A stretch of 64,000 nt of DNA, from the NCBI RefSeq assembly GCF_900290275.1, contig NZ_LT985323.1, forward strand, positions 155,641-219,640, given 5' to 3'. Below are positions 16,613-47,972 of this stretch, in pieces. The DNA is from Prevotella merdae (lineage in GTDB: Bacteria > Bacteroidota > Bacteroidia > Bacteroidales > Bacteroidaceae). The notes beneath the pieces were generated by a model. It saw only the letters and a program-made list of their open reading frames with translations. It was not told the DNA's origin and searched no databases. Within the stretch, counting starts at the first letter, position 1. Each line of letters opens with the position of its first letter. The translations under genes were made by a program, and so were the position numbers.

Positions 16613-18534
16613 ATCGAGTAGGAGGAAAACGAAGCAGTTTTCTTCCTACTTTCGTTTTCCGACCTCTCACACCACCGTACGTGCGGTTCCGCATACGGCG
16701 GTTCCTATTTTGGATACCATTCGAGATACGCCTCCATTAAAGTAGCATACCCTGCGGAGCGTAGTTTATTGTTATCTATCGCCCTTTTTAGAACAGGGCT
16801 GTCAGCTAGTCGCCAATAGCCCTTGCGAGTGTTACCCCATTCGTATGCTTGGTATTTATTGATACCGCATCTAATGAGGTTTGCCACTTTTGTCTTGACT
16901 TTCTTCCAAGCTTTCCATATACACATGCGTATTCTACGTCTTAACCATTCGTCTGTTACAAGCAAGAGACGCTTCATATTGGCAAAGTGATAATAGCCGA
17001 CCCAACCTCGTATGTATTCTTTCAGCTTCTGCTTTCTCTTGGCATATCCCCATCCATTGCTGCGGTTTGTCAGTTCTTTCAACCTTGACTTCATCTTGGC
17101 TTTGGACTTTGGGTGCACCGTGAGTTGGCATTCGCCTTTCATCACATAAAAGGAGTAGCCGAGGTATTTCACTCCGCGCACATACGACACTACGGTCTTT
17201 TCCTTGTTGACTTTGAGATATAGAGTATTCTCTATAAATCGGGTTATAGACTCCTTCACTCGCATTGCAGCCCTTTTGGACTTGCAGAATATCATCGAGT
17301 CATCGGCATAGCGCACAAAGGGGAGTTCTCTGCGTTCAAGTTCCTTGTCCAATTCGTTGAGCATTATGTTACTCAACAATGGACTTAGCGGACCGCCTTG
17401 GGGAGTTCCTTCCTCGCTCGCTTCAAACAAACCTTTGTTCATTACACCACTTCGGAGATATTTGTGTATAAGACTGACCACTCTGCCGTCTTTTATCGTA
17501 CGGCTGAGGATTTCTATGAGTTTGCTATGGCTCACCGTGTCGAAGAAGCGTTCAAGGTCAAGGTCGACTACATATATGTAGCCTTCGTTGACTATCCTTC
17601 GCGCTCCTCGTAGTGCGTCATGGCATCCTCTTCTCGGACGGAAGCCGTAGCTCGTCTTGGAGAATTGGTTCTCATAGATGGGAGTCAATACTTGGTTGAT
17701 GGCTTGTTGCACCAGACGGTCTACTACTGTAGGTATTCCCAACAGGCGCATCTTGCCATTGTCCTTGGGTATTTCTACCCTTTTTACTGGGTTCGGACGG
17801 TAAGAACCGTCCATCAAGGAACGGGTGAGTTCATCCTTATTGGTCAGGAGCCATGGGAACAATTGCTCGCACGACATCTTGTCGATACCACCACAGCCCT
17901 TGTTTCTCATAACTGCTTTGTATGCTCGATTGAGATTTGTGGGACTAAGAATTTGCTCGAAAAGGTGTTCCTTGTCGAATGGTACTTCCACGATGTTGTC
18001 TTCACACATCCACATGAAGGTCTGCACTCCCCCATACCATTCGGTTTCCGACCTATTTCTTTGGGGGCAGCCATTAACTTGGGATAATGTTTTCTGCATT
18101 CTTTCCTTCATAAGGTATGTTTCAATTACTATCGTTTAATTGTTAGGTTCAGCCCTTCGTGTAACGTTATCGATTGTTGCACTACTATGACGTCTGCTGA
18201 CTTCTCACGGCAAGCTTTACTCCACTTCTTTCGTAAAAACAACTATTTGAAGCGTCCGTGAGACCTCCTCGGATAAGGGCGTTGTCTTTCCATCTTATAC
18301 CTACTTCATTTACACCGACCGTTCCGAATAGCTATTGGGCTTTGGTTTGAATAGCAACCTCACCCACGGTCACATGCCTTATATGAAGTTTCTGTCCGTT
18401 AGGTCAGATGTTTGTCTTGGGCTTCCTTCAGATTTCATCTCGCGATGAACACCCTTGCCTTTGACTATGCAATTCCCGCTATTAGGGCTTGCTCGGGACT
18501 TTCACCCGTTAGACAATGCTCATGCCGAGCGTAC
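16613..18534 (-). mobile_element. Group II intron, probably class C
   Basis: The 5' end on the minus strand reads GTACGCTCGGC (from 18534), followed by GGGTGAAAGTCCCGAGC, an intron domain I signature. After the reverse transcriptase gene, AACCGCCGTATGCGG and CCGCACGTACGGTGGT form domain V, then a domain VI hairpin (GTAGGAAGAAAAC / GTTTTCCTCCTAC), ending near CTCGAT at 16613. The 5' end lies two bases beyond a perfect 16 bp terminator stem, as is usual for class C introns. Length is about 1.92 kb. End points are assigned by eye and may be off by a few bases. Confidence 0.85.
16705..18111 (-). CDS. ltrA: Group II intron reverse transcriptase/maturase (468 aa)
   Basis: The protein carries the RT blocks in order, including YGFRPRRGCHDAL, the GTPQGGPLSPLLSN block and the catalytic YADD near residues 267-270, then a maturase (X) domain with WVGYYHFANM. 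It lacks the C-terminal HNH endonuclease domain, as expected for class C intron proteins. It splices its own intron RNA and drives retrohoming. The frame is intact, so the intron is potentially active. Confidence 0.95.
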   Translation of the reverse strand: MKERMQKTLSQVNGCPQRNRSETEWYGGVQTFMWMCEDNIVEVPFDKEHLFEQILSPTNLNRAYKAVMRNKGCGGIDKMSCEQLFPWLLTNKDELTRSLMDGSYRPNPVKRVEIPKDNGKMRLLGIPTVVDRLVQQAINQVLTPIYENQFSKTSYGFRPRRGCHDALRGARRIVNEGYIYVVDLDLERFFDTVSHSKLIEILSRTIKDGRVVSLIHKYLRSGVMNKGLFEASEEGTPQGGPLSPLLSNIMLNELDKELERRELPFVRYADDSMIFCKSKRAAMRVKESITRFIENTLYLKVNKEKTVVSYVRGVKYLGYSFYVMKGECQLTVHPKSKAKMKSRLKELTNRSNGWGYAKRKQKLKEYIRGWVGYYHFANMKRLLLVTDEWLRRRIRMCIWKAWKKVKTKVANLIRCGINKYQAYEWGNTRKGYWRLADSPVLKRAIDNNKLRSAGYATLMEAYLEWYPK

Positions 18535-18605: not shown

Positions 18606-19484
18606 TTACACAAACAATGTGAGTGTATACAGATATATTACGGCAGCAGGAAATGCCATAAGCGAAGAATCGAAACGGTCGAGCATTCCTCCATGTCCAG
18701 GCAGAATGTTGCCCGAATCCTTTATGCCGATAGTACGCTTAAGGAGAGACTCAACAAGATCGCCCCATGTTCCGAAGAGCACAACAACCAATCCTAAGCC
18801 CATCCATTGTGGTACGGTAAGTATTAGCTCGGTAGCTGTCTCGTGCATATCCGAATTCTGATACATGCCAACAAGGGCTGCAACCAAGAGTACAAGAAGT
18901 CCGCCACCGATGCTTCCTTCCCAACTCTTGCCTGGCGACACACGTGGAAATAGTTTATGCTTTCCAAAGAGCGAGCCGCTAAGATAAGCACCCGTATCAT
19001 TGGTCCAAAGAAACACAAAGATACTTAACGGTGCCAAGTAGTTGTATACAACTCCATTGCCTACACCACGGAATGCCAACACATTGACCATAGCAAACGG
19101 CAACGCGATGTACATCTGCGACAACATGGTGTAAGCCCAGTTGTTTATGGGGTTAGGCGCCTTGGTATAGAGCTCGGCAATGAACATGTACACCACAGTA
19201 AGCAGATAGGGTATGAACACTGCCGAAGGTACAATGCCTGCACAGAAACCTGCCATGCCAAGGAAGAAGTATACGGCTGCCACTGTAGCAAGAAAGCGGT
19301 TTACGCATACATTCTCTATCCCGTTGACAATGCCGGTATACTCCCATACGGTGAGTCCGGTTACGAGTGCAAACAACAGTATCATTGCCTCTGGACGCAT
19401 AAAGCACACTACTATGGCTGTCACGAATATGACGCCAGTAATCGAGCGTGTTATGAGATTCTTCATTTTATCACTCATCGTCAT
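18606..19484 (-). CDS. cdsA: Phosphatidate cytidylyltransferase
   Basis: CdsA makes CDP-diacylglycerol from phosphatidic acid and CTP in the inner membrane, feeding all phospholipid synthesis. The protein has about eight hydrophobic segments and a C-terminal signature block with SPGKSWEGSIGG and, near residues 255-275, DSGNILPGHGGMLDRFDS. Length is normal (292 aa). Its start lies inside the last 14 bases of ftsH, so translation is likely coupled. Confidence 0.93.
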   Translation of the reverse strand: MTMSDKMKNLITRSITGVIFVTAIVVCFMRPEAMILLFALVTGLTVWEYTGIVNGIENVCVNRFLATVAAVYFFLGMAGFCAGIVPSAVFIPYLLTVVYMFIAELYTKAPNPINNWAYTMLSQMYIALPFAMVNVLAFRGVGNGVVYNYLAPLSIFVFLWTNDTGAYLSGSLFGKHKLFPRVSPGKSWEGSIGGGLLVLLVAALVGMYQNSDMHETATELILTVPQWMGLGLVVVLFGTWGDLVESLLKRTIGIKDSGNILPGHGGMLDRFDSSLMAFPAAVIYLYTLTLFV

Positions 19485-21501
19485 TAGTATTTAAGTTAGC
19501 CTTTTTAGCAGCTTCATGCTCGGCTTGCGCCTCTTTTACCTCATCAGGCATGTCCTCAAGCTTGGGAGTGTTATCCTCCATTATCTCTTCAGAACGACTA
19601 ACCCAAGGACGCTTTCCAAAGATTTGCTCCACATCCTCAGCAAATATCACCTCACGAGTCATCAGCAATTCGGCAAGCTTGTTGTGGCCCTCGCTGTGCT
19701 CCTTCAATATCTGCTTGGCGCGTGCATACTCATCGTTTATCATCTTGAGCACCTCATCGTCCATAATCTTGGCTGTTGTCTCCGAGTAAGGACGCTGGAA
19801 CTGATACTCCTGATTGTTATAGTAGCAGATGTTTGGCAAGCGTTCGCTCATACCGGCATATGCAATCATACCATAAGCCGACTTAGTGGCACGCTCAAGG
19901 TCGTTCATAGCACCCGTAGATATATGTCCGGTGAACAGCTCTTCGGCAGCACGTCCGCCAAGCAAGGCACACATCTCGTCGAGCATCTGCTCCTTAGTTG
20001 TAATCTGACGTTCCTCAGGCAAATACCAAGCTGCACCAAGGGCACGTCCACGCGGCACAATGCTAACCTTGACAAGAGGATTGGCATGCTCGCAGAACCA
20101 TGATACAGTGGCATGACCTGCCTCATGCAATGCAATGGTGCGTTTCTCATCATTGGTCATAACCTTGGTCTTCTTCTCCAATCCGCCAATGATACGGTCT
20201 ACAGCGTTGAGGAAGTCTTGCTTGCCTACAGTCTTATTGTTATGACGTGCCGCGATAAGAGCAGCCTCATTACATACATTTGCAATATCTGCACCCGAGA
20301 AGCCAGGAGTCTGACGCGAGAGGAAATCGATATCAACCGTGTCATCTATCTTTACCTTACGCAGGTGCACCTGGAATATCTCCTTACGCTCAGTAAGGTC
20401 AGGCAAGTCTACGCTAATCTGACGGTCGAAACGTCCGGCACGCAGCAACGCCTTGTCAAGCATGTCGGCACGGTTGGTAGCTGCAAGTATTATGACACCG
20501 CTGTTTGTGCCAAATCCATCCATCTCTGTAAGCAACGCGTTGAGCGTATTCTCGCGTTCGTCATTGCCTCCCATTGCAGGGTTCTTGCTGCGGGCACGTC
20601 CTACAGCATCAATCTCGTCGATAAAGATAATGCATGGAGCCTTCTCCTTAGCTTGACGGAATAGGTCGCGCACACGGCTTGCACCTACACCAACAAACAT
20701 CTCAACGAAGTCGGAACCGCTCATCGAGAAGAATGGCACACCAGCCTCGCCAGCTACAGCTTTAGCAAGCAAGGTCTTACCTGTACCCGGAGGACCTACA
20801 AGTAATGCACCCTTAGGAATCTTTCCACCTAAGTCGGTATACTTTTGAGGCTCCTTAAGGAAGTCAACTATCTCTTGCACCTCTTGCTTGGCACCAGCCT
20901 GTCCAGCCACATCCTTAAATGTTATGCCAAGGTCATTACCCTTCTCGTACATCTGTGCTTTCGACTTGCCGACGCTAAATACGCCGCCACCGCCGCCGCC
21001 ACCGCCCATACGGCGCATCATAAACACCCAGAGTATGACGAAGAAGATTATAGGTCCGAAGGTATAGAATATGGTTGTCAGACCCGAGCTTGTGTCCTTC
21101 TCGTAGCTATAGTCCATTATCTTGTTCTGCTGCTGTGCGGTTGCAAGATAATTGTCGAGAGCCTCGGCCGAACCATAAGTCACGCTTACAAATGGATTTT
21201 GTCCCAGTTGCTGAGCCGACTTACCAAAGACATCGCGCATCTTCTCGGGCTTGATATACATACGCAACGTACCCTTGTCCTTATTGACAACCACGCTGCG
21301 GGCATAACCCTTCTGCACGTACATCTTGAACTTAGTGTATGTGGCATTCTGCGTGGCCGACGGACCACCCAAAAGCATGTCGCCACCATCCGAAAAGATC
21401 AGCACAGCCAGCAACACGATGACGATGGTATAAATCCAGTTCATATTGAACTTTGGCATCTTGGGCTGGTTGTCGCCTAACTGATTTCTATTGTTGTCCA
21501 T
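19471..21501 (-). CDS. ftsH: ATP-dependent zinc metalloprotease FtsH
   Basis: FtsH is a membrane-anchored AAA+ protease that degrades misfolded and regulatory membrane and cytosolic proteins. It has an N-terminal span (residues 22-37), a periplasmic domain, a second span (about 144-162), a Gly-rich linker, Walker A GPPGTGKT at 236-243, Walker [10 protein letters not shown], the second region of homology with arginine fingers, and the zinc motif HEAGH near residue 456. Length (676 aa) is normal. It begins 11 bases after rsfS and overlaps cdsA. Confidence 0.97.
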
Positions 21502-38862: not shown

Positions 38863-38895
38863 TCGCAGATTTGTCGCACCCTAAAACCAAAAAAC
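38863..38895. repeat. Island-flanking direct repeat, left copy, part 1 (split by IS)
   Basis: GTCGCAGATTTGTCGCAC and the following AAAACCAAAAAAC match 48092-48121 in order and spacing. The rest of this copy resumes at 40320 after the IS. See the right copy. Confidence 0.65.
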
Positions 38896-38957
38896 GGCTC
38901 AGTGGAAAAGTACTGTGGATGTTTTTTTTGTTTCATAGTATTTTGTATCTTTGCATT

Positions 38958-39347
38958 ATGAACATGCTTGAACAATTAGCCCGTATAGTTCTTCCCAAAG
39001 AAATACTGGACAATTTCGATATCGTCAAGATAGAAACAGATGAGTCTGATATTGACTCAATGAGTATGACCATCTATCTAGACGAGCGTATGAATGCTTA
39101 TCTCCAAAAATCTGAGGACTACGAATCCAAAGGTTTTATGGATGCTGTACGCATAACTGATTTTCCGATTCGTGACCATAAAGTGATTCTTGTACTTCGT
39201 CGTCGTAGATGGAGAAACAAGGAAACAGGAGAGACATTTGTCGACCGTATTAGTGTTACCGAATCAGGAACCCGCTACTCGAAAGAGTTTGCGGCTTTTT
39301 TAAAAGAGACGTATGGACATATCCCCGACGACCTGCCGTACGCTTGA
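38958..39347 (+). CDS. ISAon1-type transposase N-terminal region protein (129 aa)
   Basis: The frame starts at MNMLEQLARIVLPKEIL and has the feature RDHKVILVLRRRRWRNKETG, as in the separate N-terminal proteins of ISAon1-family elements, which probably bind DNA. It overlaps the transposase frame by 35 bases in a +1 register; independent initiation at 39313 is the simplest reading, though recoding cannot be excluded. The track-length frame extends further upstream but across the IS end, so the later ATG is preferred. Confidence 0.75.
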   Translation: MNMLEQLARIVLPKEILDNFDIVKIETDESDIDSMSMTIYLDERMNAYLQKSEDYESKGFMDAVRITDFPIRDHKVILVLRRRRWRNKETGETFVDRISVTESGTRYSKEFAAFLKETYGHIPDDLPYA

Positions 39348-40305
39348 GCAATACTACCATGTAAACTCCAATACGTTGGATAAACAATACAAGGATGTCT
39401 TGAGTGACTATCGTACCTGGTCAGAACTAGAACATGCCGATGAATGGCTTGTCTTTCCTGACAACGTAGGTCGTAATTTGGCAATAGACGAGACCTCTAT
39501 GTCTAACGGTGAATTGCGCACAATCGTCACCAACAGGGACAGACACGGAAAAGATCAATGTCTGGTTGCAATTGTCAAGGGTGTTAAGTCAGAGGACGTT
39601 ATCAATGCCTTGAAGCATATACCGGAAGCACTTCTGAATATCGTTGAGGAGGTTACATTAGATTTGTCAGACTCCATGAGAAAGATTGTTCGCACATGCT
39701 TTCCAAAAGCAATGAGAGTAATTGATAGATTTCACATACAGAAGCTTGCTTGCGATGCTGTGCAAGAAATGCGCATTAAGCATCGTTGGGATGCTATACA
39801 AGAGGCCAATGACGACATGGAGAATGCAAAACTTGAAGGACGCGAATACGTGCCTTTTCGATATGAGAACGGAGATACGAGAAAGGAATTGCTAGCAAGG
39901 AGTAGGTATCTTCTTTTCAAATCAGGAGAGAAATGGACGCTGTCACAAAGCAAGAGAGCAGAGATCCTATTTAGAGAATATCCAGATTTGAAGACAGCTT
40001 ATGGACTCTCGCATTCTTTGAGAATGATTTTCTCAAAAAATACTGTTAAGGATGCCGCAAGACTTTCTATGGCTAAATGGTACAACAAAGTGGAAGAAGC
40101 TGGCTTCCGTTCTTTCAATGTTATTGCTGCAACATTCTATGAACATTACGATGATATTCTTAACTTTTATAAAAATAGATCATCTAATGCTGCAGCTGAA
40201 TCCTTTAATGCGAAAATCAAAGCCTTCAGAGCATCACTAAGGGGTATCGTTGATGAAAAGTTCTTTCTGTATCGACTTGCAAAGATTTATGCTTATCCCC
40301 ACTAA
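39313..40305 (+). CDS. ISAon1-family (ISL3-like) DDE transposase (330 aa)
   Basis: The sequence has the family DDE layout: NLAIDETSMSNGELRTIV with the first Asp, RVIDRFHIQKLACDAVQE with the second, and NAAAESFNAKIKAFR with the Glu near the C-terminus. It cuts and joins the IS ends. The frame ends 14 bases before the IS terminus. Confidence 0.88.
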   Translation: MDISPTTCRTLEQYYHVNSNTLDKQYKDVLSDYRTWSELEHADEWLVFPDNVGRNLAIDETSMSNGELRTIVTNRDRHGKDQCLVAIVKGVKSEDVINALKHIPEALLNIVEEVTLDLSDSMRKIVRTCFPKAMRVIDRFHIQKLACDAVQEMRIKHRWDAIQEANDDMENAKLEGREYVPFRYENGDTRKELLARSRYLLFKSGEKWTLSQSKRAEILFREYPDLKTAYGLSHSLRMIFSKNTVKDAARLSMAKWYNKVEEAGFRSFNVIAATFYEHYDDILNFYKNRSSNAAAESFNAKIKAFRASLRGIVDEKFFLYRLAKIYAYPH

Positions 40306-40661: not shown

Positions 40662-40757
40662 GGTACTGGAGTTTCATATAGGTGGTACTGGAGTTTCACT
40701 TATGTGGTACTGGAGTGTTACTTATGTGGTACTGGAGTGTTACTTATGTGGTACTGG
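40662..40757. repeat. 22 bp tandem repeat overlapping the 3' end of the DUF262 gene
   Basis: Units start with GGTACTGGAG and end with TTATGT at 40662, 40684, 40706 and 40728, each 22 bases, plus a partial unit at 40750. Units 3 and 4 are identical and units 1 and 2 differ by a few bases. The stop codon of the DUF262 gene at 40740-40742 is within unit 4. A GGTACTGG/CCAGTACC inverted element lies just before unit 1. Confidence 0.9.
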
Positions 40758-43025
40758 CAAAGAACTTGTATGATTGCCTTTTAATTTCACATACCTTTCA
40801 ATACAATCTTCAATCATTCTTATATAATATGAAGAGTCATGGTCTGATTGATCGTCAATTGCGATATTAAATCCTTCGCCATACTTTTTGTAGTATAGAT
40901 CGAATAACTTATTCCAATTATTATCATACATATCTATGTTTCCCGATGTTTGCCAAGCAAAATGGTATTCTTTACCTTTGTATTTATACGCAAAACACAT
41001 AGGTACTGCAAAATAGTAATTTTTGCCTTTTATTGTCCTATATCGTTTTTCTTCTGGTGCATCGAATGTTACTTTAGATTCGCCAATAAATGCATCTAAG
41101 ATATCTTCACGATTGTTGCGCGTCAATTTCAGCGTTAAATATAGATACCTGTTTAACCATAACGATGGAGAGTTGGCCTTCCATTCAAGTTTATATCCAG
41201 AATTCTCGTTTATAAGATTCTTCCAGATGTTATTATCTATTAATAACTGTATGATATCGTCATGACTATCTGCAATCTCATTCGGTGATAAAAGCAGACC
41301 ATTCACGTATTCTGAAAGATTAATGTCAGTTAGAACTTGTTTCCAACTCTCTTTATCTGTATCAAATACCGGTTTCCGTATGAGATTTATCCAATTTTCG
41401 CAATGAGAAATAAGCACTTGGTTAGCTTTTACCTTCTTTTCCTCTGAAAGTCCATCTTTGGTAAAGAGGTCTATGCAATTACAGAGTTTGGTCGCAAACT
41501 TCTCCCAAGGTTTTTCTCCATTACTATTTCTGTAAAGGAAACGGATGGAACCATGAAAGAACGCACATTCTTCAGCTTTCTCTATTGCATCGTTCCAATT
41601 ACTCCATTTACCAAGTGTTTCCTCATTCCAATCACTTGGTATGGATTGATCATTACATTGCATTTGGATAGCCTTTTCAGCTTCCTCTTCTGCTTGCTCT
41701 GGAGGATTTGAACCGATTATTTCCTTGATTTGGCGAGAGTACAATGTTTTGTCCTCTAAGTCTATGATTTTTTTGACAAGTTCAACCCTGTTGTCTTGTA
41801 CATTTTCGAGGATGTTCCACATTAAACGCAAAGCCTTTAAGAAATCTTTAGTTTCTATATTGTCAAATTTCTTAAAATATTCATAACAACAAAGTGTAAA
41901 ATCGAGATCATTTTTATTTTTGGGATGAAAGAATGTCTCAAATAAAGTTCTGTCTCCAAAGTAAGGCACTATTTTTTGGTAGCGGTCCAGAACAGTTTTT
42001 ATCATCTTTACACATGTGGCTGCAACAGTTGAAGCGATGGATTCTTTATTAGTGATACCTGAAAAATCAGAATAGGGAACAAATGGAAGTTCAATCTGAC
42101 TCCAGGTATTGTGGGTGTATGCTGCAAGTTCCTTGATGCCATTACCGCAATCCACGCCAGTTTTTTTCGCTTCGTAGGCCATGATTCGTGCATACAAAGC
42201 GAAGAAAGCATTATCCGGCAATTCGTGTTGTTCGTCTGAACAAGTGAAAAAACGATTGGAAAGCTCTTCCATCTCTTTAACCCACCACTCTTTTTTATCT
42301 TCGCATAAGTCTTCAGAGAATTTGCCTTTGAAGTTCTCCCATTGTGTCAATTGCAATCCACGGGCATTCATCTTCATGTAGATATCATCACCAAAGGCAT
42401 CTATCTTCAGATTAAATCTGATTTTTGAGGCAATGGCCTCCAAAATATCCTCTGCTGTGATGGAGTCTTGGTGTTTATTCCATTCTTCATGAATAGTGGA
42501 AAGCATTCTTATCATAGAAGCTACAGTTTCATCCTCTTTCCAATAGTCCACAAACCAATCCTGACAAAGAATATCAGGATTCGGGTCTTGGGTAATGTCC
42601 CATCTCGAGTCTTCACAAGTCAATGCCTGGCAGAATCGTTTAGCATTGATTCTGTCTTCATAGGTAAAACGAGAAAGTAAGCGCAGTAGTTCCTTACGAT
42701 TTGAGGGTTCTGCCTTTTCCACTGCGTACCTTGCAATCAGCCATAAGGTGGTCAGGCGTTGCTGACCATCTACGGGTACAAAAGAATCTTCTCCATTAGT
42801 GTTGATGGGGCCATAGATGAAATGCAGATTGAATTCATTCTGCTTTTTTTCTATTGCAGTGAAGATTTCTTTTATAAACTGTTTACGTACGCTTTCGGCC
42901 TTGGGATTATTGGCTCCCTGGACATAGTGGCGTTGAATGCCAGGAATAACCACACGATACCTGGACAATAGTGCAAACAAATTGTCTGGTACTTCTATAT
43001 AGTGCTTTAAAATATTATTTTTCAT
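40740..43025 (-). CDS. DUF262 (GmrS-like) protein, long form (761 aa)
   Basis: DUF262 is a ParB/Srx-like NTP-using domain found in GmrS of type IV restriction systems and in many defence proteins. Here VVIPGIQRHYVQG (residues 25-37) and FVPVDGQQRLTTLWL (82-96) are the two key motifs. The remaining ~650 residues include DDIYMKMNARGLQLTQWENFKG, as in DUF262 helical parts, and no DUF1524 HIExH-type end is visible. The start overlaps the preceding gene's stop as ATGA, so the two are coupled and probably act together. Restriction of modified phage DNA is the leading guess. Confidence 0.82.
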   Translation of the reverse strand: MKNNILKHYIEVPDNLFALLSRYRVVIPGIQRHYVQGANNPKAESVRKQFIKEIFTAIEKKQNEFNLHFIYGPINTNGEDSFVPVDGQQRLTTLWLIARYAVEKAEPSNRKELLRLLSRFTYEDRINAKRFCQALTCEDSRWDITQDPNPDILCQDWFVDYWKEDETVASMIRMLSTIHEEWNKHQDSITAEDILEAIASKIRFNLKIDAFGDDIYMKMNARGLQLTQWENFKGKFSEDLCEDKKEWWVKEMEELSNRFFTCSDEQHELPDNAFFALYARIMAYEAKKTGVDCGNGIKELAAYTHNTWSQIELPFVPYSDFSGITNKESIASTVAATCVKMIKTVLDRYQKIVPYFGDRTLFETFFHPKNKNDLDFTLCCYEYFKKFDNIETKDFLKALRLMWNILENVQDNRVELVKKIIDLEDKTLYSRQIKEIIGSNPPEQAEEEAEKAIQMQCNDQSIPSDWNEETLGKWSNWNDAIEKAEECAFFHGSIRFLYRNSNGEKPWEKFATKLCNCIDLFTKDGLSEEKKVKANQVLISHCENWINLIRKPVFDTDKESWKQVLTDINLSEYVNGLLLSPNEIADSHDDIIQLLIDNNIWKNLINENSGYKLEWKANSPSLWLNRYLYLTLKLTRNNREDILDAFIGESKVTFDAPEEKRYRTIKGKNYYFAVPMCFAYKYKGKEYHFAWQTSGNIDMYDNNWNKLFDLYYKKYGEGFNIAIDDQSDHDSSYYIRMIEDCIERYVKLKGNHTSSLPVPHK

Positions 43026-44575
43026 ATTTTTACAGGATTCTTTAATTTGTCAATAAAACTATCGATGTCCTTGCTCATAGAATTTCGATAAGCTTTTTTA
43101 TCTTCTTCTGACCAATATGGATCTGTCATCTTTAATCCAGGGAGTGATTTCATAAACACGGCTTCTGTGACAGGAGGTGCCCAATACTCAGTCCAACTAT
43201 TACGTGCCCATTCAGAAACAGCTTCCCGTTTTCCTTCAAACAACTTGTTATTTAACGAGGAGTTTGCATCTTTTGGCAACAATGCAAGATTCCCGATAGA
43301 ATTATCTTCTGTTGTCGGGTATCTACTGCCTAGTTTTTTAGCTAGCCAATCATCTCCTTTTCCTTTTCCGCATTCTTTTTGATACTCGTCAAACACACTT
43401 TTAGAATAGTCATTGCCTAACCACTCTTCTAGTTCTTTTTCATCCAAAACTTTTTGGTTTCTGGCAAATATATGCTCAATCGACCAAGCTTCTACTTGTC
43501 AATGCATTTCAAAGCTATAGCGATAGGCCCATCTTTTCCAACAGAAAGCGACATTGCTGAGCAACAGATAATTAAATAAATCTTCTCCCCAGTTGGAGTA
43601 ATCGTTCTTGTCTTCTTTTGGCTTGTATTCTGCCATTTTTTCTATAGCGTCCAATATCTCCTTTCTTGTTTTGGGCTTGATATCCTTATTATTTCTTTGA
43701 TGAACAATAGCTCCAAAAGCATGATACATGAGAGGGTCGTTGTACCATTCTAATAAACGATAAAATACTGAATATATCATTTCCCAAATCGTGATACGCG
43801 ACTTGGTCTTCAGTTCGTCAAGAATTCTTGTAAGAAAAGGAAAAACCTCTTCCTCTTGTTCTGTCTTCGTTGGAATTAATCCTGCATAGCGCAACAGAAC
43901 AGTCATTCCATCATCTTCTTTCCAGGTGTTACGTGGCGTTATGAATGAAAAAAAACTATTGTTATTAAGCATGCGTTCAATATCGTCCCATTCGTCAGCA
44001 CGCGCTTTCGTTACATTCGATGTCTCGTCATTTCCTAAAGTCAGCATGACGCATTTTACCAATTCTGAATCTTTTGCTGGAATTTTACCGCTATTAAGAT
44101 CGTTGAATGTGGACAATTCTTTAGCCTTTTCAACTTCATAGTAGAGAAATTTGCAACACTCTTTAATCTTTTTGCAGAATTCGGTTCTTCTTTCGGGTCC
44201 AATCTTAACCAATTTTTCCTCAATAACGTCTTTGGCCATATTCATGAAATACTTATCGAGAGCCTGGTTCGCCTCACGGGCATAGTCAATTGGTAATTCG
44301 CCACTTTCCTCACCGAGTATCAGCTTTAACGTGGTAAGTCGCTGTTGTCCATCCACTACATTTACTCTATTATTCTCTGTATCTTTAGCAACAGCTAATG
44401 CCTGGAGAAAATAGAAAGGAGTGGATTCGGTGGGACTAAAAGAGTCAATATCATCTATCAGCTGACTGACTTGTCGGCTTTTCCACCTATACCCTCGCTG
44501 ATAGCTGGGAATATAGAAGTTGATATTGTCGTTTTCAAAATCAACTATTGATTTAAGTGAAACATTCTTGCTCAT
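43022..44575 (-). pseudogene. DUF262-DUF1524 (GmrSD-like) gene split by an in-frame TGA
   Basis: The upstream part (43499-44575, 358 aa) has YIPSYQRGYRW (21-31) and VNVVDGQQRLTTL (71-83). It stops at TGA 43499-43501. The same reading frame then continues without any shift as QVEAWSIEHIFARNQ and later NSIGNLALLPKDANSSLNN, the DUF1524 HNH-like nuclease motifs, to a stop at 43022. Together they make one GmrSD-like protein of about 517 residues. The TGA is a nonsense change, a sequencing error, or a read-through site; restart at TTG 43447 would omit the IEH motif. It is coupled to the downstream DUF262 gene. Confidence 0.8.
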
Positions 44576-44663
44576 AAGTTTTCTTTTTTACATTTTCTTT
44601 ATCATTCTAGCAACCTCTTTAGCTTAGTAAATAGGTTCAAACAATGTAGGTCTAATAAAGACA

Positions 44664-45845
44664 TTAGAGTATTAAACGCATTCTTTCTACTGCCTTGTCA
44701 AGTATGCTCTTTGTCTCATTGATAAAAGCGTCTGTATCCTTGAGTCGGCTTGCAATGTTAAGACATCCTATCCATGTTACCTTTCCTTGGTTATTAATCA
44801 TTGGCTTGAAAGACTTGTCGATGTCCATTAACGCAGATGATATCGCATCAAAAAACTCGTCTTTAGGATGATTGTTTTTAAGAGAACGGACCCCAATTTG
44901 CTTTTCAGACTGGTTGGAAATAGTAATAAGCAAAACAGGATTGCCTTGCTGGTCAGCTATGGATAATCTTTCTATATTCTCTTTCTTTTCATAGACTTCT
45001 AAACCTATATTAAATTTGCAGTAATTGCAAAGACTGGCATAAATATACTCCCAACGAAGGGTGATTTCATGCTTTATCTCATCTCTGTCATTTCTTTTCT
45101 TTGTGAATGATTCAAGAATGTCTTTTGATTTGGCATAAAATTCTCTGTAATCAATAGGCTCATTATCCAACTTAAAAGCACGCCCTAAAGATTTGCACAC
45201 CAATTCCATCTGCTCAATCGACCAAGATGAAGAAGTATGTTCAATGCCATAAGTAGGGATACTGTCTATTTCCCCGTAATCAAGTTTGACAACATCACCA
45301 AGTAAAGGATTTTTGCTATCCAACAGCAACTTCATACAATTCTTTCCACCCAAGCAAATAATGTGTTTTGGGCGAATAATGTCTATCAACATTTTTGTAT
45401 ATTCAATTGATGCCTTCTGTGCCTCTTTGACTTTTAATCCATTAAGACCTGTTTCCTTATGCGTAGAAAAGAAAGTGGCATTAGTGAGTACAAAACGACT
45501 TTCATCTTTCATTAAATCACCAAAATAGCCATAATCAAGAATGGAACGGAGCCTTCTTACGATGCGCCATTCAAAGATGTTGAGATGAGGGGCACCCTCT
45601 TTCTTGAAATCACAATTTCCATGCAGCAAATATTCGGGTTTGGTAAATCGGTCTTTCTGATAATGTCCTCCATACCCAGGATTGATGCCAATGACCATTA
45701 GCTCAACGGGCTTGTCGTCTGTAAGTTGGGTAAGGTCTGACTGAGTGTAAAAATCCAAATCAAGGACTCTTGCCTCTTTTGAATAAAATTCATAGGCTTC
45801 TTCAGCCCATAGTCTCAGTTTTTCTTGAATATTCATGTTCTCCAT
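44664..45845 (-). CDS. Uracil-DNA glycosylase-fold protein with extra C-terminal region (393 aa)
   Basis: The N-terminal ~235 residues have the UDG-superfamily pattern: VIGINPGYGG with GINPG at 53-57, as in MUG/TDG where the Asn is catalytic, a core strand PKHIICLGG at 159-167, and IEHTSSSW at 201-208 in the place of motif II. Residues about 240-393 match nothing that I recognise. Such enzymes remove a base from DNA; some related proteins act in phage defence on modified bases. It lies between a WYL regulator (50 bases upstream) and the GmrSD-like gene (88 bases downstream), which supports a shared task. Substrate is unknown. Confidence 0.7.
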   Translation of the reverse strand: MENMNIQEKLRLWAEEAYEFYSKEARVLDLDFYTQSDLTQLTDDKPVELMVIGINPGYGGHYQKDRFTKPEYLLHGNCDFKKEGAPHLNIFEWRIVRRLRSILDYGYFGDLMKDESRFVLTNATFFSTHKETGLNGLKVKEAQKASIEYTKMLIDIIRPKHIICLGGKNCMKLLLDSKNPLLGDVVKLDYGEIDSIPTYGIEHTSSSWSIEQMELVCKSLGRAFKLDNEPIDYREFYAKSKDILESFTKKRNDRDEIKHEITLRWEYIYASLCNYCKFNIGLEVYEKKENIERLSIADQQGNPVLLITISNQSEKQIGVRSLKNNHPKDEFFDAISSALMDIDKSFKPMINNQGKVTWIGCLNIASRLKDTDAFINETKSILDKAVERMRLIL

Positions 45846-45895
45846 TGATTACAGTTGGATTTATTAATATACAACAATTTTATTCTATGCCATAT

Positions 45896-46810
45896 CTATT
45901 CACCATCCTTATACTTGTTCCACATTCTCTTTACTTTTCCTGCAATCTCCTTACGTAGCCATAGCGGCTCGAGTACTTCAAGGTCTTCACCATTCCATAA
46001 CAGTTCCTGTTGGAAGTCGAATGTCGGGCGCACATGCAGTTCAAAGATGCTGTATTCATCTGTTTGCTCAGTCTCTTGTTGCGACTCATGCAGAGGAAGG
46101 TCGCGCAGGTAGTTAGCCTGACTGGTACTGACCTTGATTTTTACCTTCTCAATGTCGGTGCCATCGCCAGGAATTACACCTATACAACCATTGAAGTATT
46201 CCTGTGGATTGAACTCTTCAGGATATTCAAACGTGTGGCTCGAAAGGCGGAAGTCATGTATGCGGTCGAGACAAAAGACGAGGTCATAGCCTGCAGGCCA
46301 ATTACGCCCAACCAAATACCAGCGTTGGCGGTATAGCTTTACGCATAGCGGCATCACATAATGGTCGCGCGTGTCACCTTTCCAGTAGTTGAAATAGTTG
46401 ATATGAATGAAGCGGTTCTTCTTCATCGCATCTATTATCAGCTCCAAATATTCCCTGCCACTGGGCACGTCTTCAAGGATAATCCTGTTCTTGACAGATT
46501 TGCTTTCAAGGAGAAAATTACTCACCGATAGCGTACTGAGCAACCAATTTTCAATACTTCCACTCTTCATATCCTCCACGTTGGCGATATAATACCTATA
46601 TGGAGCGGTCTTTTCGCAGTCTATCGACAATCCGAAGGTGTCGAAGATATTCCACTTCCACTTATGGAAAGTGCGCTTCAACATCTCCTCACCACCGCTC
46701 AAATCTACATTATCCATCCAGCGGCGGTTCAATTCCTCGAATGAAATCTTATGTGCCTTATAGATGGTTTCCACAATCCATACGAGCTTATTGGTTTGAT
46801 TCAGTGCCAT
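45896..46810 (-). CDS. WYL domain transcriptional regulator (304 aa)
   Basis: The N-terminal ~100 residues form a winged-helix-like part (SFEELNRRWMDN, MLKRTFHKWKWNIFDTFGL), followed by the WYL domain near residues 130-200 (RFIHINYFNYWKG, VKLYRQRWYLVGRN) and a C-terminal extension near 225-300. WYL proteins bind nucleic-acid ligands and often repress defence operons (for example BrxR and CapW types). Position directly ahead of the glycosylase and DUF262 genes suggests control of that set. Confidence 0.85.
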   Translation of the reverse strand: MALNQTNKLVWIVETIYKAHKISFEELNRRWMDNVDLSGGEEMLKRTFHKWKWNIFDTFGLSIDCEKTAPYRYYIANVEDMKSGSIENWLLSTLSVSNFLLESKSVKNRIILEDVPSGREYLELIIDAMKKNRFIHINYFNYWKGDTRDHYVMPLCVKLYRQRWYLVGRNWPAGYDLVFCLDRIHDFRLSSHTFEYPEEFNPQEYFNGCIGVIPGDGTDIEKVKIKVSTSQANYLRDLPLHESQQETEQTDEYSIFELHVRPTFDFQQELLWNGEDLEVLEPLWLRKEIAGKVKRMWNKYKDGE

Positions 46811-46920
46811 ATTTGTCGTTTATATACGATAACGTTTCGGCTGCTAAGATATTGCTATGGTGTGTCTTTTTTTCATACCATCATAATCAATCTCGCTCTA
46901 CAAGGTTGCAATTTGCAACC

Positions 46921-47250
46921 TTATAGGTGGGAGAAGCAGCTGCATAAAAGTTGGACCAACAATTTTTCGTCTAACTTTTCATCTGTTCCAGTCTCCCATG
47001 TATATTCTGCTTTGTGAAACTTATTTGCAAAGAACGAGACCAACTGACATAACTCACTCTTTTTCAACGGATATACTGATGCAGTAATAAACTGTAGCAC
47101 AACCTTGTCATATTGTTTGCAATCAATCATTGCATAATCTTCAAACTCTCTGATTATACTTTCCACTCGCAACTCACCGTCATTAGGAAAAGAAATAATT
47201 CTTCTTTTTAAGACAGCACGTGCCTGTTGATTTTTGACATTATCTTTCAT
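46921..47250 (-). CDS. Uncharacterised small protein (109 aa)
   Basis: No family is recognised. The chain looks mostly helical, with basic N-terminus (RAVLKRRIISFP) and a Cys near the end (LLCSCFSHL). There is no signal peptide or membrane span. Its ATG lies two bases after the stop of the 238-codon gene upstream, so the two are almost certainly cotranscribed. About 110 bases separate it from the WYL gene. Confidence 0.6.
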   Translation of the reverse strand: MKDNVKNQQARAVLKRRIISFPNDGELRVESIIREFEDYAMIDCKQYDKVVLQFITASVYPLKKSELCQLVSFFANKFHKAEYTWETGTDEKLDEKLLVQLLCSCFSHL

Positions 47251-47252
47251 TT

Positions 47253-47927
47253 CTACAAAGGTACTGATGTGAATAAAGTTAATGTTTTCGGCGTGGCTAT
47301 CGTGATTGTAAGATATAATAGGCTCTTATCCGGAAAGGTTTCCATATAGTCACCTACAGGAAGCATCATCTTTTCAGGAAGCGTTATCTTTTTCATCTCA
47401 TCAGTATAGTCATTGGCTATGGTAATAGCCAAAATATACCTGCCATTTTCTTTTATATATATTGACTTTAGATGCGCAAGAGCTTCTGTTATGTCTTTTT
47501 TATACACATACGAGTGGGTAGATATTACGTTCCTTCCTCTTATAAGTATTGAGAAATCAGACAAATCAAAGCATAATAGACCATGCTTCTCTATACATAT
47601 ATTATATAGTTGCAGAAACTTTTTCAATTCTAAGTATGGATTGCTATCTGCCTGAAAAGACAATATAGAGAAAATGTCAGATTCTTCTTTGATACTGAGT
47701 TCTGGATTCATTTTTATTACGACATTTCTTCTTGTACATGCATGTGTTTCTAAGATTTCATTAACGCTATCGGCTCCTTTGTCAGTAGACACCAACACGA
47801 CATTAACATGTACATTTGGGCTGTTCTTTATTGAATATATACCTTCTGAACGAAGCTCGTTGATTACTTGTTGGCTAACATAATCTGCCGCAATCAGCCG
47901 TAATGATTCAAGTGCGATTTTTTCCAT
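47253..47927 (-). CDS. Uncharacterised protein (224 aa)
   Basis: No family is recognised with confidence. The chain alternates short strands and helices (VHVNVVLVSTDKGADSVNEI, LLCFDLSDFSILIRG, YILAITIANDY), with a pattern vaguely like an FtsZ C-terminal domain, which is only a guess. Start is set at MEKIALESLR (47927); the frame is open for 14 more codons. It pairs with the 109-residue gene. An inverted repeat (TAAAATGGAG/CTCCATTTTA, 47973-48013) lies just upstream and may regulate it. Confidence 0.55.
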   Translation of the reverse strand: MEKIALESLRLIAADYVSQQVINELRSEGIYSIKNSPNVHVNVVLVSTDKGADSVNEILETHACTRRNVVIKMNPELSIKEESDIFSILSFQADSNPYLELKKFLQLYNICIEKHGLLCFDLSDFSILIRGRNVISTHSYVYKKDITEALAHLKSIYIKENGRYILAITIANDYTDEMKKITLPEKMMLPVGDYMETFPDKSLLYLTITIATPKTLTLFTSVPL

Positions 47928-47972
47928 TTTATTAATGCTTATATCTTTATAATCATAAATACAGTGCAAAAA

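Follow-up and report, generated by a model that had tools for sequence, protein, structure and literature searches.

The genes considered here lie within a window of 64,000 nucleotides of Prevotella merdae (contig NZ_LT985323.1, positions 155,641 to 219,640), where by window is meant the whole stretch of DNA that was analysed, with coordinates counted from its first nucleotide. On the minus strand, at 40740-46810, is a putative operon, i.e., genes which presumably share a single transcript. In order of transcription these encode a WYL-WCX transcriptional regulator of 304 amino acids (aa; 45896..46810; Pfam WYL 6.3e-10, WCX 2.6e-13), a 393-aa protein with the fold of uracil-DNA glycosylases (UDGs), a 358-aa DUF262 frame (DUF262-A; 43499..44575; GmrSD_N 1.8e-28) and its stop, a 141-aa GmrSD_C open reading frame (ORF), and a 761-aa DUF262 protein (DUF262-B; 40740..43025; GmrSD_N 1.5e-16). 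The joint presence of WYL and WCX domains, by Pfam, is that expected of a defence regulator. An earlier note had described these genes as a candidate defence operon, and that observation is confirmed in part. A WYL-headed candidate defence operon, plausibly aimed at modified DNA and with a glycosylase-fold protein and GmrSD-type proteins among its parts, is supported; not supported is the proposal, considered below, of a joint two-step machine made up of the glycosylase and both DUF262 proteins.

The 393-aa frame is open and uninterrupted, and predicted models divide its product into two domains. The first, residues 1-231 (45153..45845, minus strand), has the alpha/beta UDG fold along with the active-site motifs of that superfamily, i.e., an asparagine after the first strand (GINPG, N55), a base-recognition asparagine (TN, in TNATFFST, N122), and the histidine of the third motif (H203). 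These we take to be the equivalents of the SMUG1/MUG/family-4 motifs. All three residues are invariant across 29 alignment rows, and the concern of the earlier note that the active site might prove deficient thus was not realized. Pfam PF03167 is matched at 19.1 bits, below its gathering score of 24.3, and a sequence search of the PDB returned no UDG. One might suppose instead that this protein has a sensory role and no enzymatic one, signalling upon binding of a modified base or nucleotide, with its C-terminal domain binding protein in an arrangement like that of secretion chaperones. The invariance of the active-site residues argues against that idea, as too does the ranking of MotA structures above such chaperones among structural matches of the C-terminal domain, and a sensor accordingly is considered to be improbable.

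That C-terminal domain, residues 232-393 (44664..45152, minus strand), is predicted from models to possess a double-wing-like fold. It has no Pfam match, and hhalign against MotA (MotCF, PF09158) gave a probability of 0.2%, or 1.9% given a wider seed; nor was sequence similarity detected to the T4 MotA C-terminal domain or to MmcQ/YjbR double-wing proteins (PMC6755090, PMC7641849). The window domain, moreover, is fused to a glycosylase-fold domain whereas MotCF is fused to a transcription activation domain. From the Foldseek viral library there was nothing at E <= 0.001, the best match being a Bacillus phage G protein (1.7e-3), with an ALC protein at 0.057. In what is available of Machnicka 2015 (PMC4619093), the terms wing, glycosylase, WYL, and MotA are absent.

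The removal of modified bases as a form of immunity was reported in 2024 for Brig1 (PMC11078745), and Brig3 is a single-domain relative of Brig1 of solved structure (PMC13160076). Both are UDG-type enzymes which leave abasic sites and can stop T-even phages. The window protein resembles them, by analogy, in its superfamily, in its probable defence setting, and in its probable excision of modified bases. It differs from Brig3 in its added, predicted C-terminal domain and, to go by motif register only, in having a glycine where Brig3 has E55. In addition, as compared by description, the window family has a WYL regulator plus DUF262 or PD-(D/E)XK partners. Neither WYL nor DUF262 is mentioned in the Brig1 text as available (PMC11078745), and in that for Brig3 GmrSD is named for comparison only (PMC13160076). 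An ADP-ribosylglycohydrolase gene neighbours Brig1, its Nocardioides homologue, and Brig3 as cloned, though with the latter this gene was dispensable against T4(5hmC) (PMC11078745, PMC13160076). There is none in the window. Like those of Brig1 and Brig3, however, are such genes at two of the loci described below, where one (L103:956-1768, Pfam 3.3e-39) adjoins a cut, domain-sharing frame and the other (L110:2605-3303, 1.5e-33) adjoins a C-domain protein.

Both DUF262 proteins carry the DGQQR motif, and a GmrSD-like DUF262 NTPase domain is present. Also present is GmrSD_C (DUF1524/HNH), but this is separated from DUF262-A by an in-frame TGA. That is, the TGA at 43499-43501 closes the 358-aa frame, the same frame running on to 43022, and the remainder (43022..43498, minus strand) bears the GmrSD_C/DUF1524 match (2.7e-6). 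The 141-aa ORF (43022-43447, minus strand), with its TTG start, is found within that remainder. DUF262-B, which overlaps the end of the preceding frame by 4 bp, has no DUF1524 match by Pfam. Among the 120 DUF262-A homologues listed, of 4,240, 59 with 88-97% identity are 503-523 aa long, and three further ones at >=88% are shorter (248-341 aa). The frame is uninterrupted at the TGA site in the four long homologues which were read, so the TGA is not a feature of the family but instead is a mutation in the window copy or an error of assembly. Programmed read-through was rejected for the same reason. Restart at the TTG, giving rise to a split GmrS/GmrD pair, is unlikely because the TGA is followed shortly by the EH pair of the nuclease motif, which comes before the next ATG, GTG, or TTG and therefore ahead of that start. 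To judge from sequence, the nuclease arm of the window copy probably is not working; the frames of the glycosylase and of the regulator are open.

How these genes are combined elsewhere was followed across related loci, designated here by L numbers. An initial scan of genome contigs supplied eight; those fetched were 34 picked by WYL gene (the closest of the list), six picked by glycosylase, and five more. ORFs were labelled from blastp comparison with a 27-protein panel, and L089, its WYL frame having been lost in the ORF filter, was left out of evaluation, as was the weak match L018. The nearest relative locus found, L051, is from the same genome as L001 and reads p238 (a 238-aa ORF), WYL (94% identity), DUF262-A (92%), and DUF262-B (83%), with no glycosylase. 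By blastn, indeed, window positions 44658-45905 (1,248 bp, minus strand), i.e., the glycosylase as a cartridge, correspond to just 48 bp in L051. The glycosylase also is found with other partners. In L001 and L002 the order is WYL, PD-(D/E)XK (PDDEXK_4 2.2e-11), glycosylase, and a second protein with an IENK-type nuclease motif by eye and no Pfam match, while in L007 and L008 it is WYL, glycosylase, and a RecA/KaiC-like ATPase; within the stretches fetched, none of these four has a DUF262 gene. That the C-termini of the PD-(D/E)XK proteins might be homologous to the C-domain of the glycosylase had been suspected by eye and was not shown (hhalign <= 0.8%). In L003, L058, L059, L060, L066, and L067 a WYL gene is accompanied by two DUF262-type proteins, in five of the six by a DnaQ-like gene as well, and by no glycosylase in the run, that of L003 being 3.2 kb away on the opposite strand.

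The proposal of an obligate two-step attack, in which a glycosylase generates abasic sites that DUF262 nucleases then cut, must be viewed in light of these arrangements. In its favour, the genes are adjacent and co-directional both in the window and in L055 (WYL, glycosylase, DnaQ, and DUF262, GmrSD_N 5.5e-28), which is the one locus besides the window seen to combine WYL, glycosylase, and DUF262 in one run, though the L055 glycosylase is distant, with its best panel match, to that of L003, at 32%. A third case likely exists, unseen, as the longest contig is 123,186 bases for both P0004, a glycosylase of 88% identity, and P0121, a DUF262-A of 80% identity. Co-occurrence, the check which the earlier note had suggested, thus is mixed. 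Weighing against an obligate sequence of steps are L051, with its WYL gene and both DUF262 genes retained absent a glycosylase, the four loci with glycosylases absent DUF262 in the stretches fetched, and the window itself, where the HNH half is cut off and the glycosylase frame is intact. Such a two-step dependence consequently seems quite improbable.

A C-terminal domain of related glycosylases provides a connection of a different sort. The last 120 residues of the L008 glycosylase share 50-53% identity with the N-terminal end of a DUF262-DUF7834 protein from L087 (blastp 1.7e-37), and a profile of L007, L008, and L087 matches L067 (iE 2.8e-7) and L066 (3.7e-6), E-values computed over fetched ORFs only, in both cases at the N-termini of DUF262 proteins in WYL loci. 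Addition of these two results in a five-member profile with matches in 6/393 Bacteroidales genomes, i.e., the L008 glycosylase, four DUF262-DUF7834 proteins (L104-L107), and L103, the frame of which ends at a contig edge before any DUF262 could be scanned. In L107 a WYL gene is directly upstream of the domain-bearing protein, and in L066, L067, and L087 a second DUF262-type protein is the next gene, that of L087 possessing GmrSD_C. By sequence, therefore, one domain in the L007/L008/L087 lineage is common to glycosylases and DUF262 proteins. As the sequence of the window-type C-domain could not be aligned to this L007/L008-type domain (0.3%), that sharing is not extended to the window. The window-type domain is coupled in L098 to a DUF1643 domain (Pfam 2.9e-5), in a protein adjoining a WYL gene (1.5e-4 genome-wide; iE 1.2e-7 among fetched ORFs), and is matched as well by L110 and L111 proteins (8.5e-5 and 6.6e-4 over whole genomes, with a query including L098 and L070). 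For DUF1643 no paper was among the matches listed from open-licence literature. L087:3425-14939, as a separate observation, is mostly co-directional (one 220-aa ORF is opposite), with WYL, DnaQ-like, and PD-(D/E)XK-like genes and, at its end, the domain-fused DUF262 protein and a DUF262-DUF1524 protein.

A WYL gene is present in the same-direction run in six of nine two-domain glycosylase loci (the window, L001, L002, L003, L007, L008, L055, L071, and L097; not counted are L020, a repeat of L003, and L111, which is cut). It is divergent in L003, and in L071 and L097 there is no WYL gene in 16-17 kb. As L001 and L002 are near-identical and L007 and L008 are related, those six represent about four lineages. 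With shorter relatives of the glycosylase, by comparison, WYL is in the run in 1/12 loci (L004, L005, L006, L070, L072-L076, and L099-L101, in stretches 5.6-20.7 kb long), namely L070, where the WYL frame holds a stop; in L100 a WYL-like frame (23%) occupies the other strand. From the opposite direction, a glycosylase-fold gene follows the WYL gene in at least 4 of the 34 WYL-picked loci (L055, L070, L082, and L085), with the L082 and L085 calls based on weak UDG matches, both under cut-off (4.8e-4 and 3.6e-3), and that of L070 on a protein with no Pfam match along with a shorter relative that closes the run. Pfam assignments among 93 of the 101 proteins listed as encoded after WYL genes (the other 8 were left out; the window and glycosylase-picked loci are included) were RNase_T 15, GmrSD_N 13, PDDEXK_4 8, Tubulin 5, and GmrSD_C 3. 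A tubulin/FtsZ-type GTPase domain, for example, is found at L080:5961-6908 (6.3e-12), after WYL and PD-(D/E)XK-like genes, and a 160-aa ORF of L001 (13275-13757) has a weak, under-cut-off match to FtsZ_C (8.9e-5).

It is here that chance may be considered, that is, that these genes are mere neighbours in a defence island, the WYL regulator belonging to the DUF262 pair and the glycosylase, with a job of its own such as repair, having landed in between. The clean indel, implying independent gain or loss, would agree with this, as would the low G+C of the operon (0.35-0.41 versus 0.40-0.53 elsewhere, in 2-kb windows) and the adjoining ISL3-type transposase. Against chance, however, are the pairing of WYL genes with two-domain glycosylases in six of nine loci, across about four lineages and among glycosylases down to about 30% identity, and the sharing of a domain with DUF262 proteins at WYL loci of a like kind. 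Mere proximity is, for these reasons, viewed as unlikely.

The motif TAnnTTTG, presumably the Bacteroidetes-type -7 box, is upstream of 34/40 WYL genes versus 127/478 control genes, with the window box (in 46811-46930) differing slightly from that of L051. A common inverted repeat is not relied upon: three patterns, chosen after looking, occurred upstream of 4, 4, and 8 of 40 WYL genes versus 9, 6, and 12 of 478 controls.

Among described systems, the DUF262 proteins with DGQQR and DUF1524 resemble GmrSD and BrxU, the latter likewise occurring within a BREX island in the vicinity of a WYL gene, BrxR (PMC8565348, PMC12707154). Differing from these, the window has tandem DUF262 proteins, one without a DUF1524 match, an inserted glycosylase, and an interrupted DUF262-A. 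Nor was there a BREX model among the PADLOC matches listed for 8 proteins, i.e., the operon plus upstream sequence to 48789 (for DUF262-A, 25 of 36 matches), and over that same span core brx/pgl genes were not found beside the WYL gene. The best PADLOC models for DUF262-A are HEC-06 (1.1e-19), Orf5, and SspE. Among the open-licence papers listed, no title brings WYL, DUF262, and a glycosylase together in a single system; a DefensePredictor figure legend abbreviates UDG among predicted, unvalidated systems (PMC13092281).

The evidence fits a family of WYL-headed, varied cassettes, all the parts of which plausibly are directed against modified DNA, the glycosylase being one cartridge among them. 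The explanation favoured here, to which we assign a probability of roughly 0.5, is of a WYL-regulated, modular defence operon acting against phages with modified bases, one in which a two-domain glycosylase and a type IV pair serve as parallel arms. The UDG-fold domain would flip out and excise a modified base, leaving abasic sites, by analogy with Brig1 and Brig3, and the double-wing-like domain may hold the enzyme on hypermodified DNA. DUF262-A, together with its DUF1524/HNH half, and DUF262-B would be an NTP-dependent type IV restriction pair, with the WYL protein setting the expression of whichever cartridge follows. Glycosylase and nuclease would hit the same class of target in parallel, with no obligate chain, a reading which is based on the cartridge both coming and going cleanly and pairing with different nucleases. 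In the window copy the nuclease arm probably is disabled by the stop, with the glycosylase frame remaining intact.

The glycosylase profile is matched in 9/399 Bacteroidaceae genomes and in 7/393 Bacteroidales genomes, one of those seven by the C-domain alone. There were no plasmid matches to the 393-aa protein or to the L008 glycosylase, and profile scans of viral contigs (A1, A4) gave no confirmed match. A search of phage records gave one unannotated faecal contig (L020), the genes of which repeat those of L003 at 96-100% (the WYL genes were not compared directly); though filed as phage, this probably is bacterial DNA. L003 itself, labelled as Erysipelotrichaceae, is close in its genes to Bacteroidaceae loci and possibly is mislabelled, as possibly is L006, a 'Ruminococcus' contig with the gene order of the Bacteroides contig L005 and a 93% glycosylase.

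Upstream of the WYL gene is a 109-aa ORF (46921..47250, minus strand), its family not confidently assigned, which is included in a second clean indel, i.e., 46879-47252 of the window versus 2 bp in L051 by blastn. Beyond it is the 238-aa ORF, p238 (47253..47969, minus strand), similarly without a confident family, which is upstream of WYL in L051 too (84%) and whose membership in the system is uncertain. Directly downstream of the operon, at 38871-40305, the ISL3-type transposase is split into ORFs of 158 and 330 aa which overlap; the latter matches DDE_Tnp_ISL3 (3e-49) and the former, only weakly, an ISL3 zinc ribbon (0.053). Further away are a 468-aa reverse-transcriptase/maturase-like protein (16705-18111), by eye probably of a group II intron, and an FtsH-like protein (19471-21501, so named by eye) with 76% identity in the L002 genome (Segatella albensis) and 72% in that of L001 (Prevotella pectinovora), which makes a host from the Prevotella group probable.

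More broadly, and tentatively, as the odds are rather against it, there may exist in Bacteroidales a reader-guided family of base-excision and restriction systems. Here MotA-like double-wing domains would be exchangeable between glycosylases (UDG- and DUF1643-type) and DUF262 nucleases, behind related WYL regulators, with T4 binding its own hypermodified DNA using the same fold. If true, then hosts aim both base-removers and cutters at phage DNA by way of a phage-like reader. The glycosylase, in any case, resembles an exchangeable component of a broader defence repertoire. Suggested by the locus are glycosylases that have a second domain built in and are exchanged, cartridge-like, with GmrSD and PD-(D/E)XK nucleases behind WYL. 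Relatives of the WYL regulator are common, occurring at E <= 1e-20 in 202/399 Bacteroidaceae genomes. The means by which hosts direct these enzymes to modified DNA, and the identity of the modified bases in phages that infect these bacteria, thereby become testable.
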